Shown here in pieces: positions 422 through 5,857 of a stretch of 5,934 nucleotides of DNA (positions within the stretch are counted from its first letter, which is position 1; each line of letters begins with the position of its first letter). The notes below the pieces were generated by a model that searched no databases, was not told the origin of the DNA, and saw only the letters and a list, made by a program, of their open reading frames with translations. Source of the stretch: Acidobacteriaceae bacterium (GTDB taxonomy: Bacteria; Acidobacteriota; Terriglobia; Terriglobales; SbA1); contig JAFAGX010000248.1 in NCBI GenBank assembly GCA_019237515.1, positions 1-5,934 of the forward strand, given 5' to 3'. A program made the translations under genes and the position numbers.

Positions 422-426
422 AGAGG
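422..426 (+). promoter_or_regulatory. Shine-Dalgarno site that sets the otsB start
   Basis: AGAGG lies 5 bases before ATG at 432. An in-frame GTG at 426 overlaps the AGAGG itself, so it cannot use this site. ATG 432 is therefore preferred over GTG 426. Confidence 0.6.
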
Positions 427-431
427 TGCTG

Positions 432-1223
432 ATGGGAGCCCTGACCCACGCAGATCGGCGCACGAGTTTCTTCGCTCAGCTTCGTTCAGCGCCAAGCCGT
501 GTGCTCCTGCTTGACTACGACGGAACACTCGCGCCTTTTCAGATTGAGCGTGATCGGGCAGTTCCATATCCCGAAATTCCTGGCTTGTTGAGGCGGATAA
601 TCGCAAGTGGGACGCGAGTGGTTCTAATCAGCGGACGCCCAGCGCGCGAGCTACGCGAGCTTCTTGACGTCCAGCCGCAGCCGGAAATCTGGGGCAGCCA
701 CGGCACCGAGCGTTTGCGGCCTGATGGCACGTATCACGTGCAGGAGCTTTCACCAGAGCAAGGGAATGGGCTTGGGCAGGCCGAGAGTCTTGTGCGAAAC
801 CAAGGTCTCGAAACCCGACTGGAGCGCAAACCGAGTGCCATTGCGCTGCACTGGAGAGGATTGGGGCAGCGCGCGGTCGCAGATCTCAAGATCAGAGTTG
901 AGCCGCTTTGGAGTGAGCTCGCAACTCGTACTGGCTTGAAATTAATCGAGTTTGACGGCGGTCTGGAGCTTCGAACCCGGGCTGAAGACAAAGGAAAAGC
1001 CGTTATTGCCATCCTAAGGGAATGCAACCAAAATGCAGCAATTGCATATCTTGGCGATGATCGTACCGACGAGGACGCGTTTAGTGCATTGCAGGGCAAA
1101 GGCTTGACAGTGCTGGTGCGGAATCAATATCGACCGACTTTGGCGGACATACATTTGCGTCCGCCAGGTGAAGTCCTCGAATTTCTGCGCGACTGGCTTG
1201 CTAATTCAAACGAGGAGTGCTGA
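432..1223 (+). CDS. otsB: trehalose-6-phosphate phosphatase
   Basis: This 263-residue cytoplasmic enzyme hydrolyses trehalose 6-phosphate to trehalose and phosphate, the second step of the OtsA/OtsB pathway. It belongs to the haloacid dehalogenase superfamily, and all four HAD motifs are visible. Motif I is LLLDYDGTL, with nucleophile Asp28 and acid/base Asp30. Motif II is LISGRP (Ser67-Gly68-Arg69). Motif III lies in the EDKGKAV segment (Lys187). Motif IV is GDDRTDEDAF (208-217), with the metal-binding Asp cluster. The cap domain contains GSHGTERLRPDG and the ExKxxAxxxHWR-type stretch (Glu131, Lys133, His140, Arg142) that recognises the sugar phosphate. The length is usual for bacterial OtsB. 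ATG 432 was chosen over the in-frame GTG 426 because AGAGG (422-426) is spaced correctly for it. Its TGA stop shares its A with the otsA ATG, so the two are translationally coupled. No key residue is missing and I see no sign of decay. Confidence 0.95.
   Translation: MGALTHADRRTSFFAQLRSAPSRVLLLDYDGTLAPFQIERDRAVPYPEIPGLLRRIIASGTRVVLISGRPARELRELLDVQPQPEIWGSHGTERLRPDGTYHVQELSPEQGNGLGQAESLVRNQGLETRLERKPSAIALHWRGLGQRAVADLKIRVEPLWSELATRTGLKLIEFDGGLELRTRAEDKGKAVIAILRECNQNAAIAYLGDDRTDEDAFSALQGKGLTVLVRNQYRPTLADIHLRPPGEVLEFLRDWLANSNEEC
1212..1217 (+). promoter_or_regulatory. Shine-Dalgarno site for otsA, inside the end of otsB
   Basis: GAGGAG at 1212-1217 is 5 bases before ATG 1223 and lies within the last codons of otsB. 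An in-frame GTG (1217) overlaps the site and is therefore an unlikely start. Ribosomes ending otsB at TGA (1221-1223) can restart directly on ATG (1223-1225). Confidence 0.65.
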
Positions 1224-2779
1224 TGCTTACACCAGGACGCCTGATCAACGTATCAAACCGGTTGCCGGTTTCGATCAAGAAAACTACAGCGGGAATGCGA
1301 GTGGAGCGAAGTTCAGGAGGTCTGGCCACAGCACTGGACAGTGTCTGGCAGGACCAGCCTGGCGTCTGGATCGGGTGGCCAGGAATAACTGAAGATCAGC
1401 CGACGCAGGAGTTGTTGGCGCGCGCTTCCCGTCGCCGCTCTCACCGATTTCAAGGTGTCACGCTGACCAGCGAAGAGGTCGATAAATTCTATGCCGGTTT
1501 CACCAACGAGATCATCTGGCCGCTCTTTCATGACATGCCGACACGCTGCAACTTCGATCCGGATTACTGGGACGTGTACCAGCAAGTAAATCGCAAGTTC
1601 GCAACCGCAGTCGCTCAGGCCGCTCGAGATGAAGATTTTATCTGGGTACACGATTACCATCTGATGTTGGTCGGCTGCTCTCTTCGGCAACTAGGAAAAC
1701 AAGCCAAAGCCGGTTTCTTCTTGCATATTCCATTTCCCTCCCCCGATATTTTTGAGCAATTGCCGTGGCGAAATTCGGTGCTGAAATGCCTATTGGATTT
1801 TGACGTCGTGGGATTCCAGACCGATCGTTATCGTAATAATTTTCTGTGCTGCTTGAAGCACTTGTTCCCTGACGTGGTCATCGAACAAGTAACTCCACAT
1901 GCGCGGGTGAATTTTCGAGGGCACACCACCGTGATTGGTACGTTTCCGATCAGCATCGATTTTGATGATTTCGCGGGACGAGCGGCACGACCAGAGGTCG
2001 CGGCAAGGTCGGCTACAGTCCGTCGCGAGTTTCTGGACAACGTTCTGGTGCTCGGGGTCGATCGCCTTGATTACACAAAAGGCATCCCTGAACGACTGAA
2101 GGCTTTCCGTCATTTGCTGCGGCGGTTCCCGGAGCTACGTCGGCAAATCACGCTCGCCCAGGTTGTGGTACCTAGCCGCGAGGATATTCCAAGATACAAA
2201 GAGTTGCGCCGTGACATCGAGTTGTTGGTGAGCCAGATCAACGGCGAATTTACCGAACGGGGCTGGGTCCCGGTTCACTACATGCATCGCCAGATCAGTC
2301 GGGATGAATTGCTGGCTTACTATCGCGCCGCCGACATTGCATTGATTACTCCGTTGAAGGATGGCATGAATCTGGTTGCCAAAGAATTTTGCGCGGCGCA
2401 GATCGACGAACGCGGGGTTGTAATTATTAGCGAGTTCGCCGGGGCCAGCGACGAACTGCGGCACGGAGCGATTCTCGTGAACCCCAATGACATCGCTGGA
2501 GTTGTCCAAGCGATCCGCGACGCGTCGCTGATGTCGCAGGAAGAGAAGAGCACCCGTATGCGGCTGTTGCGCAACATCATCAAGGAGCACAACGTGCAGC
2601 GCTGGGCTCAGTCATTCCTCGAGGCTGCTGCGCTTGCGACGGGACAGAGCTCGCCAGGAGACGGTGGTCAGCCCGGACCGCGGCTTATTCAGCCGAAAAC
2701 ACCACGAGAGCCAGTGCCTGGCGTAGCGCTGATTGCGATGCCTTCCACTCGGCACTCGCATCGTCCGGTTGCGACTTAG
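1223..2779 (+). CDS. otsA: trehalose-6-phosphate synthase (glycosyltransferase family 20)
   Basis: This retaining GT20, GT-B-fold enzyme transfers glucose from UDP-glucose to glucose-6-phosphate, forming trehalose 6-phosphate for OtsB. Its 518 residues carry the full family signature. N-terminal VSNR (Arg13), GGL (32-34) and WIGWPG (49-54) come first. KFYAGFTNEIIWPLFH follows, with Tyr90 and Trp99 at the glucose-6-phosphate site. Then come VHDYHL (142-147; Asp144) and FLHIPFP with His168. The nucleotide-sugar site has GVDRLDYTKGI (Arg281, Lys286). LKDGMNLVAKEF (Asp380, Glu388) and SEFAGASDEL complete the set. These match the E. coli catalytic positions Arg9, Tyr76, Trp85, Asp130, His154, Arg262, Lys267, Asp361 and Glu369 (from memory). 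It starts at ATG 1223, overlapping the otsB stop by one base. The last 45 or so residues (474-518) are a Gly/Pro/Ser-rich tail beyond the usual ~474-residue E. coli length. The TAG stop overlaps the stop of the convergent CYTH gene. Confidence 0.97.
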   Translation: MLTPGRLINVSNRLPVSIKKTTAGMRVERSSGGLATALDSVWQDQPGVWIGWPGITEDQPTQELLARASRRRSHRFQGVTLTSEEVDKFYAGFTNEIIWPLFHDMPTRCNFDPDYWDVYQQVNRKFATAVAQAARDEDFIWVHDYHLMLVGCSLRQLGKQAKAGFFLHIPFPSPDIFEQLPWRNSVLKCLLDFDVVGFQTDRYRNNFLCCLKHLFPDVVIEQVTPHARVNFRGHTTVIGTFPISIDFDDFAGRAARPEVAARSATVRREFLDNVLVLGVDRLDYTKGIPERLKAFRHLLRRFPELRRQITLAQVVVPSREDIPRYKELRRDIELLVSQINGEFTERGWVPVHYMHRQISRDELLAYYRAADIALITPLKDGMNLVAKEFCAAQIDERGVVIISEFAGASDELRHGAILVNPNDIAGVVQAIRDASLMSQEEKSTRMRLLRNIIKEHNVQRWAQSFLEAAALATGQSSPGDGGQPGPRLIQPKTPREPVPGVALIAMPSTRHSHRPVAT

Positions 2780-3369
2780 GTAATTCGCGTAGCACGCCGA
2801 CTGTTCCCTCGGCGAATAGCTGCAAACGTCATCTCATGCGCTGGGCTGCGCGTTGCTTTTTTCCATTCGAAAAAAAGGGTGGTATAAGTATCGGTGACGT
2901 AATCATCGGGCGCGAGTCCAAGAAGACGCGCGGTTCGGTCGATCCAGCGCGCAGACCCTTCGATTTCGCCAAAGTTGCCAATGGGTGTTTCATCCACGAC
3001 CACGTGGCCTTGGGCATCTTCCCATTCCGCGCGAAATTTTTCGTAGCGAAACGCGGGTGCGAAGCCTAAGGCATGCAGGATGGCCTCCATCCTCTTCCCA
3101 TCCGCCACTTTCGTTTCGGTTTCGATTCTGACCTTGTGACGTCCTTCTGCCCCTTTGGCTTTATGAGTCAGCAGCCAATCAGCCCCGTATTTCCGGAGCC
3201 GTAGAAGTTCGCCTCGTTTGCGGAGAGGCTGCCCGCGAAGATCGTAGAGCGTATTCATCTCATGCGTGCGTTTTGTGGTCAGGCGAAATCCTGCCTGCCG
3301 CAAACGACGGTTCAATTGATCCAAATCGTCAATCCGGAATTTGATTTCGATTTCTTTGCTGGCCGGCAT
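2776..3369 (-). CDS. CYTH-domain protein (class IV adenylate cyclase / triphosphatase superfamily)
   Basis: This 197-residue cytoplasmic protein is of CyaB/thiamine-triphosphatase type. It has the N-terminal ExExK signature of the triphosphate tunnel metalloenzymes (EIEIK; Glu6, Glu8, Lys10). Alternating charged tunnel strands follow: LLRLRK (Arg57, Arg59, Lys60), LTHK (Lys70), HKVRIETE (Lys79, Arg81, Glu83, Glu85), RYEKFRAEW (Arg108, Lys111, Arg113), VVVDETPIG (Asp126, Glu127) and GEIEG (Glu135, Glu137). Such folds bind a triphosphate substrate and Mg2+ or Mn2+. Members make cAMP from ATP or cleave inorganic triphosphate or thiamine triphosphate, and the sequence alone does not decide between these. 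ATG 3369 fits because EIEIK normally sits within the first ten residues, but no Shine-Dalgarno sequence precedes it. It lies 40 bases after the DedA-rhodanese stop and is probably the last gene of that transcription unit. The basic tail (RRGNSRRATRIT) extends past the domain and overlaps the end of otsA by 4 bases. Confidence 0.85.
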   Translation of the reverse strand: MPASKEIEIKFRIDDLDQLNRRLRQAGFRLTTKRTHEMNTLYDLRGQPLRKRGELLRLRKYGADWLLTHKAKGAEGRHKVRIETETKVADGKRMEAILHALGFAPAFRYEKFRAEWEDAQGHVVVDETPIGNFGEIEGSARWIDRTARLLGLAPDDYVTDTYTTLFFEWKKATRSPAHEMTFAAIRRGNSRRATRIT

Positions 3370-3409: not shown

Positions 3410-4378
3410 TTAAGCGAAAGTCGGCAGCTTCACCAGATCATCGTGCGGCACAGGTTCTAAAGGCTGGCCTGCTTTTCGCCAAGCGGCAAGACCGCCATGG
3501 ATGACGAACGCGTTAAAGCCTTTCTCCCGGAGTTGCAGCGCCACACGGGCGCTAGTGGCTTCGCGCGCTCAAGTACAGTAAAGATAAATGTCCTTATCCG
3601 TGCTCCAGCTTTTTAGTTCTTCCGCAAGGTTGTTCGGTTCGAGCCGGATCGAGCCCTTGATGCGTTCGGCGCCGGCATCGTAATAGCCGTGGCTGCGAAC
3701 GTCGACCAGTAGAACTTTGCTATCTTCCGATTGCAGCTTGCGGGCCAACTCCTGCACCTGAACTCGGGGGACGACATCCAAAAGTTTGTACTTGCCGTAC
3801 AACCAGATTCGATAAGCAAGGTATATGACTGCAGCAATGATCAGAGTTTCGGTCAGGATGTGTCCGGCGGTTTGGAAGCTTTGCGTAATCTTCGCAAGAA
3901 AGTCGCGGAACACATAGCCTAAAGCACTATAGGCAAGGACGTACGCGAGGGCACCCACGGAGTCCAGGCGAAGAAATTGCCCGAACCGCATTTTCATGCT
4001 TCCGGCAAGAGGGGCGGACATGGTATTCAGGCCGGGAATGAACTTTGCGATCATCACCGTCATTTTCCCGCGCTTGTAGAATGATTCTGCCGAACGCAAA
4101 ATGCAGGTTTCCGGATTGATAGACAGCCGGCAGAGCGCACCGAGCAAGGCCCAGCCCGTATATCGGCCCAGAAAAAATAACACCAGATCTCCCATGAGGA
4201 GACCACTAAAAGCCAGGGACAGCACAATGGGAGCCCGCAGGATCCGGGCGGCTACTGCGGCTCCGGCTCCAACCAATGCGAGCGATGCCGGCAGAGGCAG
4301 GCCTAGGGATTCGGCCAGCACGATTCCGAACACCAGCAGGTAGCCATGATGCGCAATCAGTGATTGGAAACTATTCAT
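3410..4378 (-). CDS. DedA membrane protein fused to a rhodanese domain; probable selenoprotein with in-frame TGA (Sec270)
   Basis: This 322-residue inner-membrane protein is read through TGA 3569-3571 as selenocysteine. Residues 1-195 are a DedA (SNARE-associated/VTT) domain with several hydrophobic segments. It includes AESLGLPLP (Glu23), GDLVLFFLGRYTG (Asp64) and the re-entrant motif KFIPGLNTMSAPLAG (111-125). DedA proteins act in membrane homeostasis and some recycle undecaprenyl phosphate. Residues 203-322 are a rhodanese domain: VQVQELARKL, LLVDVR (224-228), the active loop YCT-U-AREATSARVA, then VIHGGLAAWRKAGQPLEPVP. The TGA sits at the second position of a Cys268-Thr-Sec270 pair, where Cys-type relatives, as I remember them, carry Cys-x-Cys. 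All 52 codons after it are rhodanese-like and open to TAA 3410-3412. ATG 4378 is chosen because the other in-frame ATG (4417) lies in a strong hairpin; its Shine-Dalgarno sequence is weak. Alternatives are a nonsense mutation or a single-base error at the TGA. Confidence 0.83.
3537..3571 (-). promoter_or_regulatory. candidate bacterial SECIS element (UGA plus downstream hairpin)
   Basis: On the mRNA the UGA (3571-3569) is followed after 15 nt by AGCGCC (3553-3548), loop CGUGU (3547-3543) and GGCGCU (3542-3537). This is a perfect 6-bp stem that a U-G wobble extends to 7. The loop starts 22 nt after the UGA and has a G in its first two positions. Both agree with the rules I recall for bacterial SECIS elements, which are read by the Sec-specific elongation factor SelB. 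It lies wholly inside the coding sequence, as bacterial SECIS elements do. Structure and placement are seen directly; function is inferred. Confidence 0.6.
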
Positions 4379-4406: not shown

Positions 4407-4427
4407 CTGGGCGGCATTGCCGCCCAG
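4407..4427 (-). terminator. strong inverted repeat between the DUF5818-like gene and the DedA gene
   Basis: CTGGGCGGC (4407-4415) and GCCGCCCAG (4419-4427) form a perfect 9-bp stem with a 3-base loop, 19 bases after the stop of the small secreted protein gene. No T-run follows on the minus strand, so it is not a classical intrinsic terminator. It may trim or stabilise the 3' end of the upstream message and lower expression of the DedA gene. An in-frame ATG (4417) falls partly in the loop and would be hidden. Confidence 0.4.
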
Positions 4428-4446: not shown

Positions 4447-4761
4447 TTACTTCAGCATTTTCACGCTCATAACGTGGATAGCGTTCTTATCCGCATACAC
4501 GTGCGCACTGAGCTCGACGTGGTGACCCTCATGTCCCTTCAACGCCTCAGGGTTCATTACATCCCAGGATTTCATCCCCTTATCGCTAACAAACGTCAGC
4601 TTATCGCCATCCGCCTTGACCGTGCCCTTGATGTTTTTAAGGGGGGCGGCAGGTGCAGCCTTGTCAGTTTGTCCGGCGCCCTGGGACATATCCTGTGCAA
4701 AAGCCATCGTGCCAATGGAGGTTACGCAGAATGCCAAGAGTAAAACCAGAACCTTTTTCAT
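4447..4761 (-). CDS. small secreted DUF5818-like protein
   Basis: This 104-residue protein has a clear Sec signal peptide: MKK, a hydrophobic core VLVLLLAFCVTSIGTMAFA, and probable cleavage after Ala22 (AFA before QDM). The mature part begins with a short Gln/Gly/Ala/Pro-rich linker. From about residue 42 there is a compact beta-rich domain: NIKGTVKADGDKLTFVSD, then WDVMNPEALKGHEGHHVELSAHVY and a final strand NAIHVMSVKML. This pattern (a G-T-V strand, a W-x-V-x-NP segment, G-H-x-G-H-H-V) resembles the DUF5818 proteins common in Acidobacteriota, whose function is unknown. The fold suggests a small OB- or SH3-like exported barrel. The His-rich GHEGHH stretch (76-81) could bind metal, but that is speculation. 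It has the best ribosome site of the minus-strand genes. It lies between the polyprenyl synthase (106-base gap) and the DedA-rhodanese gene (68-base gap). Confidence 0.8.
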   Translation of the reverse strand: MKKVLVLLLAFCVTSIGTMAFAQDMSQGAGQTDKAAPAAPLKNIKGTVKADGDKLTFVSDKGMKSWDVMNPEALKGHEGHHVELSAHVYADKNAIHVMSVKMLK

Positions 4762-4867: not shown

Positions 4868-5857
4868 CTATCGGTCCCGATCTACCACATATTCGGGAGC
4901 CCAAAGCAATGCGCGTTTAGCTTCGCACTGAGGGAAGTTACAGATGGCGTTACGCGCCAGCTTCGCGTATTGGGCGGCACGGTCATGAGCTGCTTCAATT
5001 GACCCGTAGCGGTGAAGGATCTCGAGAATATCTCCATGGGTTACGCCGTTGAAAGCGCGATCGCGCATAACGGTGCTGATCTTCTGGCGTTCACAAGGCG
5101 AACAGCGCTCAAGCGCGTGAATGACCGACATGGTGACCTTGCCTTCGCGCAGATCACTGGCGACGGGCTTACCTAGTACATTCTCGGAGGCGGTCAGGTC
5201 TAGCACGTCGTCCACAATTTGAAATGCCATTCCCAGGTCCCGTCCGTATTGTGCAAGGTTCTGTTCTTCTTCGGCATTTGCACCACTTAAAATCGCTCCC
5301 AGCCGCATGCAGACCGAAAACAGGCAAGCGGTCTTTCGGTAGATGAGGTCGAAGTGCTCATCCAAGGAAATGAGCTTGCCCAACTTCTCCATCTGGAGCA
5401 GTTCTCCTTCGACCATCTGCTGGGTCAGATCGATGAGGGTGTCGAGAATACGGAAATTGCGTTCCTGAACCGCGATCTTGAAGGCCTGCATGTAAAGCCA
5501 ATCGCCGGCCAAAACGCATTTTGAATTTCCCCATTGTGTATTGGCGGCGGGCCGTCCGCGGCGGCTTTGCGCTTCGTCAATGATGTCATCGTGAACCAGC
5601 GTAGCGGTGTGAATGATCTCAACCACCGCACCAAGTTTGATGGCCCCTCGCCCGCGGTAGTCGAAGAGTTTGGAGGAAAGCAGAACCAGCATGGGCCGAA
5701 TGCGCTTGCCCCCGCCCGCCCTGAGATATTCCCCGATTTCGGTGATCGCTTCGACCTGCGAAACCGTATCGCGGCCAAACTCCCGCTCGATCGCAGCGAG
5801 ATCATCCCGCAGCAGTTCGAAAATTTCCTTACCGTTGATCGCGGCCGATGCGCTCAA
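4868..5857 (-). CDS. long-chain all-trans polyprenyl diphosphate synthase (IspB-like)
   Basis: This 329-residue cytoplasmic enzyme elongates an allylic diphosphate with isopentenyl diphosphate, usually to build the side chain of a respiratory quinone. Features in order are GGGKRIRP (48-55), the first Asp-rich motif DDIID (90-94) followed by RRG (99-101), and KTACLF (175-180). GMAFQIVDDVLD follows, with the second Asp-rich motif DDVLD (216-220), then LGKP and DLREGK (235-240). Both metal-binding motifs are intact. The fifth residue before the first motif is Ala85, a small residue, which fits a long-chain rather than a C15/C20 product; the exact length is not readable. The start is TTG 5857: an in-frame TGA lies six codons upstream, and no in-frame ATG occurs before the essential GGGKRIRP segment. 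The Shine-Dalgarno is unclear. It appears to be the first minus-strand gene in the window. The name ispB is not assigned because octaprenyl specificity is unproven. Confidence 0.92.
   Translation of the reverse strand: MSASAAINGKEIFELLRDDLAAIEREFGRDTVSQVEAITEIGEYLRAGGGKRIRPMLVLLSSKLFDYRGRGAIKLGAVVEIIHTATLVHDDIIDEAQSRRGRPAANTQWGNSKCVLAGDWLYMQAFKIAVQERNFRILDTLIDLTQQMVEGELLQMEKLGKLISLDEHFDLIYRKTACLFSVCMRLGAILSGANAEEEQNLAQYGRDLGMAFQIVDDVLDLTASENVLGKPVASDLREGKVTMSVIHALERCSPCERQKISTVMRDRAFNGVTHGDILEILHRYGSIEAAHDRAAQYAKLARNAICNFPQCEAKRALLWAPEYVVDRDR

Follow-up and report, generated by a model that had tools for sequence, protein, structure and literature searches.

A DedA-rhodanese fusion gene from an Acidobacteriaceae bacterium (assembly GCA_019237515.1, contig JAFAGX010000248.1) very probably encodes a selenoprotein, with selenocysteine (Sec) inserted at UGA codon 270; judging from sequence comparisons, we put the probability of this reading at roughly 0.93-0.95. 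A preliminary description of the DNA had proposed a selenoprotein at this place, and the proposal is now supported by the distribution of TGA and Cys codons among homologues, by a candidate SECIS hairpin, by the Sec machinery of related genomes and by selection on the codons past the TGA. Automatic annotation cuts these proteins at about 269/270 residues and thereby loses the rhodanese end, as happened to 37 of the 120 matches listed (of 6200 homologues). Reading through the codon would add a membrane-anchored selenoprotein that is common among the acidobacterial loci read, and DedA-rhodanese is absent from the selenoprotein listings searched. In what follows, the window is the whole 5,934-nt stretch of DNA that was analysed.

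The reading frame and its in-frame TGA

The gene lies on the minus strand and its main features are these:

3410..4378, minus strand: DedA(VTT)-rhodanese gene with the TGA read through, giving 322 residues and one proposed Sec at residue 270 (translation with TGA as a residue; homologues share the ATG)
3914..4276, minus strand: VTT/DedA membrane domain, residues 35-155 (Pfam PF09335, E 2.4e-9, 38.2 bits over a cut-off of 33.9)
3473..3754, minus strand: rhodanese domain, residues 209-302, matched with C for U (Pfam PF00581, E 4.8e-12)
3575..3577, minus strand: Cys268, at the canonical rhodanese cysteine position just past strand 263-267 (AF2 model, row alignment)
3569..3571, minus strand: TGA codon, proposed Sec270, third residue of the C-x-U loop (translation, codon comparison across loci)

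After ...KDIYLYCT the frame meets an in-frame TGA (3571-3569) and then stays open through AREATSARVALQLREKGFNAFVIHGGLAAWRKAGQPLEPVPHDDLVKLPTFA up to a TAA at 3412-3410, 52 codons on, and the translation thus bears out what had first been read from the letters. Counted from ATG 4378, which matches the starts of homologues, the cut product has 269 residues and the full product 322; an upstream ATG at 4417 gives the longest ORF, of 282 residues. The TGA splits the rhodanese domain in two under ordinary annotation. The domain is indeed completed past the TGA, as had been claimed, with PF00581 reaching 46.7 bits over a cut-off of 22.2, and the predicted cut at 269 residues is found in practice, since databases carry 269/270-residue forms. 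The nearest named homologues of the window protein come from Terriglobales MAGs. An Rfam scan of the window gave four matches, all under their gathering scores, and a plasmid DNA search with the window gave no match.

The codon column in homologues

What stands at the TGA position in other genes? Among the 120 matches listed of 6200 homologues, 82 have Cys at this column, one has Arg and 37 (the window's own cut protein included) end exactly there, which chance would hardly produce. Cys in the Cys-type relatives had been foreseen in the preliminary description, and homologues with an unrelated residue, which it had set down as counting against the idea, come down to the single Arg record. This record, the metagenome homologue P0015, may stem from a single-base substitution in TGA, from an error or from genuine loss of the active residue.

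The codons themselves were read in genomes, whose contigs we scanned with two peptide patterns, neither of them covering the codon. From 185 confirmed loci 80 acidobacterial ones were kept; 78 of these have TGA at the codon and 2 have TGC, a share that is not a class-wide rate because the kept loci are the nearest to the window. TGA was expected to recur in other genomes; as it stands at this column in dozens of them, it is not a sequencing error. In a class-wide sample, 201 of 299 genomes had a match at E 1e-20, and the 38 near-family loci fetched from it divide into 14 TGA, 17 TGC and 7 TGT. There is also a far family, sharing about 34% identity with the window protein and matched over both domains, with a loop that is mostly C-T-U-P-N-E-A; its 32 loci, chosen from both kinds, carry TGA in 20, TGC in 7 and TGT in 5. 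Alignment placed the codon column in 151 of 151 loci. Every one of the 38 distinct open-frame genome genes has a Cys codon (TGC or TGT) there, and no third residue occurs among the genome loci read. Two residues upstream, Cys268 is Cys in 119/119 near-family rows (some of them copies) and in 32/32 far-family rows.

The far TGA genes (L145-L164) have their TGA at the same column and a loop that reads C-T/S-U-P-N-E-A or comes close to it, and they share the SECIS stem described next.

A predicted SECIS hairpin

A bacterial SECIS hairpin, of which the preliminary description made no mention, is predicted downstream of the codon:

3538..3552, minus strand: predicted bacterial SECIS hairpin, stem GCGCC/GGCGC, loop CGUGU (3547-3543), UGA-to-loop distance 21 nt (conservation, and the bSECIS model of PMC13188914)

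The element GCGCC-CGKGU-GGCGC begins at the 17th nucleotide past the UGA. Once identical copies had been removed, the near set held 87 TGA and 26 Cys genes. The complete five-pair stem is present in 87/87 near and 20/20 far TGA genes (107/107 together) versus 1/26 near and 2/12 far Cys genes (3/38), and when the pairing partner was slid by 1-6 nt as a control, no TGA gene had a full stem. The hairpin's codons are fixed at synonymous sites. In the near TGA genes the hairpin codons are Ser AGC in 87/87, Ala GCC in 83/83 of those with Ala, Val GTG in 84/84 and Ala GCG in 84/84, while for conserved Ser, Ala and Val positions upstream the commonest codon reaches at most 0.88, 0.57 and 0.42. All 98 TGA genes that carry the peptide SARVA spell it with AGC GCC, GTG and GCG and vary only in the third base of Arg, against none of the 4 Cys genes that carry SARVA. 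In L123, L126 and L127 the protein is changed and the stem is kept as GCACC/GGUGC, a compensatory G-C to A-U change that is perhaps one event; L135 has a wobble pair in the stem.

The bSECIS model, as given in the available text of PMC13188914, calls for a loop of 3-9 nt, a stem of 4-16 bp, a G in the first two loop positions, a distance of 16-37 nt from the UGA and an energy at or below -7.5. The window hairpin falls within these limits (5-nt loop CGUGU, 5 bp, 21 nt), with -8.6 kcal/mol in its 45-nt context and -7.6 kcal/mol for the stem alone, the latter barely beyond the published limit. The minimum-energy fold of these 45 nt is a rival hairpin, GCCAC/GUGGC, rather than the SECIS stem; its arms occur in only 26 of the 87 near TGA genes, so it is conservation and not energy that decides for SECIS. 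Against shuffled sequence the window stretch has no folding advantage (183 of 200 shuffles do at least as well), and folding energy was rejected as proof: over the five stretches folded, two of them from Cys genes, z-scores ran from -0.79 to +1.21.

The exact 34-nt pattern of UGA plus hairpin has 29 occurrences in 30 whole genomes, one in each of 27 TGA genomes and two in G016. It is absent from both Cys genomes, and a reversed control pattern is absent from all 30. When its places in four genomes (G003, G006, G008 and G029) were compared with gene coordinates, 4/4 lay inside the DedA-rhodanese gene.

Selection and history of the codon

The stretch past the TGA is under purifying selection. 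Its 49 codons have a median dN/dS of 0.117, versus 0.106 in the 49 codons before the TGA (a ratio was obtained for 83 downstream and 59 upstream pairs out of 90), and none of the 87 near TGA genes has a second stop inside the region matched. Parsimony on a tree of 145 genes, calculated with the codon and hairpin stretch masked, counts 9 Sec/Cys exchanges, and well-supported branches require 6 of these; the tree is a quick one and carries a warning of long branches that meet.

These data bear on one alternative, that the TGA is a true stop and the gene makes a DedA protein whose rhodanese tail is truncated and decayed, whether as a pseudogene, through a recent nonsense mutation or through a sequencing error. 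Such a reading would agree with the databases, which list the 269/270-residue form as a protein, and with a DedA domain that is complete before the TGA. We nevertheless hold it to be very improbable: TGA stands in 78/80 genome loci and 37 of the 120 matches listed end exactly there, the codons past it are about as constrained as those before and, in all 87 near TGA genes, free of a second stop, and TGA genes retain the SECIS stem, which most Cys genes have lost. A pseudogene or an error was rejected on the 78/80 loci.

Selenocysteine machinery in related genomes

We infer the Sec machinery of the window's own organism from its relatives, namely 30 genomes picked from the 80 loci (28 of the TGA form, 2 of the TGC form). 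Among the 28 TGA-form genomes, tRNA-Sec was found in 22, SelB in 23, SelA in 26 and SelD in 23; 18 have all four, 5 have three, 3 have two, one (G018) has SelB alone and one (G030) has none. In neither of the 2 Cys-form genomes did we find tRNA-Sec, SelA, SelB or SelD. A genome devoid of all Sec machinery had been named beforehand as an argument against Sec, and among these relatives at least one part is present in 27 of the 28 TGA genomes, with G030 as the case that goes the other way. TGA genomes that lack machinery are drafts and may be incomplete.

G030, the genome of L080, has the TGA form and an intact SECIS, and tRNA-Sec, SelA, SelB and SelD were not found in its 4.7 Mb draft; incompleteness or mixed binning is possible.

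For tRNA-Sec, presence was called by the gap between strong matches, at 64-72 bits, and all others, at 58.1 bits or less. The Rfam cut-off of 47 bits is unspecific here because tRNA-Ser lifts Cys-form genomes over it too: it is passed by 27/30 genomes, both Cys-form ones included, and by 5/14 control genomes. ARAGORN identified the five strong matches given to it, from five TGA genomes, as SeC(TCA); for the eight genomes that lack a strong match, it called the best ones tRNA-Ser.

In the class sample, SelB goes with the TGA codon. Among the matches listed, it is present for 14/14 near TGA genes versus 14/31 near genes without the stop (Fisher p 2.5e-4), and for 53/58 far TGA rows versus 17/45 far rows without it (p 6.7e-9), so that 5 far TGA rows sit in SelB-less genomes; the place of the TGA at the column is confirmed for all 14 near genes and, among the far rows, for the 20 whose loci were fetched. 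These tables leave out G161, a SelB-negative fragment without a stop, and G088 (one TGA, one TAA), count G110 (two TGA) as TGA, and take three genomes missing from the SelB list as SelB-negative; there are genomes that occur twice or fall into both families, and 212 SelB-positive genomes were used versus 213 over the profile cut-off.

Could the UGA be read as something other than Sec, through a reassigned code or a programmed readthrough with Cys, Trp or Arg? The Arg at the column in one metagenome homologue would fit, as would the TGA-form genomes in which SelB was not detected. Set against these are another gene pair of the same window and the relatives' tRNAs:

426-2779, plus strand: trehalose-phosphatase and OtsA (trehalose-6-phosphate synthase), in the order phosphatase then synthase, with an overlap of a few bases

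The trehalose-phosphatase ORF ends at TGA, and the five TGA genomes checked with ARAGORN have SeC(TCA) tRNA genes. Moreover, the hairpin fits the bSECIS model as far as the available text of PMC13188914 sets it out, and the replacement residue is Cys in 38/38 distinct open-frame genome genes. Code reassignment was rejected, because TGA serves as a stop in the window and tRNA-Sec is present in relatives, and we give a non-Sec reading of the UGA a very small chance.

In G001-G030, 19 of the 24 SelD matches listed carry one in-frame TGA themselves, so that in many of these genomes SelD is probably a selenoprotein too.

Domains, gene neighbourhood and proposed function

The AF2 model (mean pLDDT 79.8, pTM 0.59) places C268 right after strand 263-267 and ahead of helix 274-285; U270, entered as Cys, lies in the loop, and C268 occupies the place of the rhodanese catalytic Cys. 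Foldseek with this model finds solved rhodaneses among its top matches (best E 2.5e-5), rhodanese names recurring among the best 50 of 282, and the 11 sequences that a profile search found among solved structures all match over the rhodanese part.

The genes around the locus are these:

4868..5857, minus strand: polyprenyl diphosphate synthase, upstream neighbour (domain match, flank comparison)
4447-4761, minus strand: 104-residue ORF between the polyprenyl synthase and DedA genes, with a signal-peptide-like start by eye
2776..3369, minus strand: CYTH-domain gene, downstream neighbour (domain match, flank comparison)

In 68/80 loci a gene for a polyprenyl diphosphate synthase is found upstream in the same orientation, no more than 2.5 kb away in 66 and no more than 500 nt away in 23; a CYTH gene follows downstream, likewise in the same orientation, in 54/80 (50 within 2.5 kb). 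Because these two recur as neighbours, we favour a polyprenyl-lipid or envelope setting. The 104-residue ORF has relatives at 26/80 loci and matches no Pfam family at E 0.001; relatives of trehalose-phosphatase and OtsA were absent at E 1e-8 from the flanks of the 80 loci.

To account for these features we propose that the SECIS hairpin, 21 nt past the UGA, would recruit SelB with Sec-tRNA-Sec, and that the ribosome would then read UGA 270 as selenocysteine. U270, two residues past C268, could close a selenenylsulfide with it. Because C268 stands at the catalytic Cys place and U270 would be able to pair with it, the rhodanese domain would most likely be a thiol/selenol redox or persulfide relay anchored in the membrane, not simply a thiosulfate sulfurtransferase, and the DedA-fused protein would probably serve the polyprenyl-lipid-carrier or envelope side of the membrane. 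The combination of the two, a redox/persulfide role in a lipid-carrier context, is a tentative suggestion drawn from residue position and gene neighbourhood.

What the DedA part may carry is a further matter. In its KFIPGxN stretch, Lys112 is found in 116/119 and Asn118 in 109/119 near rows. Going by spacing and motif, these would be the places of the two Args essential in UndP-flipping COG0586 DedA proteins; Lys and Asn at the Arg places would weaken the flippase reading, and the DedA part may move something else. In the UndP-flipping DedA proteins the two Args lie six residues apart in the second reentrant helix, according to the available text of PMC10127716.

Sec insertion might also be incomplete by design. 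At low selenium the gene would then yield mainly the 269-residue DedA-only protein and, with selenium, the full enzyme, the UGA acting as a selenium-gated switch. The TGA does follow a complete DedA domain, and since the stop falls past that domain the short form could fold and work. The nine Sec/Cys changes counted by parsimony argue the other way, as they suggest that Cys forms do well without any switch. We regard it as unlikely that the gene makes such a bifunctional membrane protein, in which a DedA carrier and a C-T-Sec rhodanese would couple a redox or persulfide reaction to polyprenyl-lipid handling when selenium is present and the DedA part would act alone when it is not. If true, a single UGA would make the recycling of envelope lipids depend on selenium and the redox state in a large group of soil bacteria.

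Comparison with known systems

Selenocysteine in a CxU rhodanese has precedents. The available text of PMC13188914 lists NF041203 with the motif CxU, and that of PMC9312934 lists a CxU rhodanese form. The NCBIfam family NF041203 (rhodanese_LYCAU, rhodanese-related (seleno)protein) shares the C-x-U active loop in the rhodanese domain with the window protein and is the best NCBIfam match both for it and for the six relatives scanned. Its model has 126 positions and covers the rhodanese part only; the window protein scores 86.3 bits (C for U) and the six relatives 78.8-92.9, all under the curated cut-off of 115. In a term search of the available text of PMC13188914 and PMC9312934, DedA, VTT, SNARE and Acidobacter were not mentioned.

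Going by its NCBIfam name, TsoB (NF045694, rhodanese/DsbD fusion-like selenoprotein) is a fused rhodanese selenoprotein, as is proposed for the window protein. Unlike the C-x-U of the window protein, its motif is UxxxxU in the available text of PMC13188914, and the match is weak (27.1 bits versus a cut-off of 805).

DedA-rhodanese fusions are known as well. The available texts of PMC10127716 and PMC12893004 describe COG0586 members with PF09335 and PF00581 in one protein, for example P. aeruginosa PA1209, whose domain order is that of the window protein; a term search for 'selen' met it in a reference title only in the former text and not at all in the latter. We found no description of a selenoprotein that combines DedA/VTT with rhodanese in the open-access literature searched, partly by titles and abstract starts. 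The label "new-type" given to the selenoprotein in the preliminary description thus stands in part: the DedA-fused form of the CxU rhodanese selenoprotein seems to be undescribed, and the CxU rhodanese family NF041203 was already listed. The part of the literature available also hints at an earlier connection of selenium with DedA proteins.

Selenocysteine usually marks a redox-active residue, and the Sec form is for that reason a sharp handle on the connection between rhodanese and UndP in DedA fusions, a connection called unclear in the available text of PMC10127716. The natural Sec/Cys swaps allow a paired biochemical comparison.
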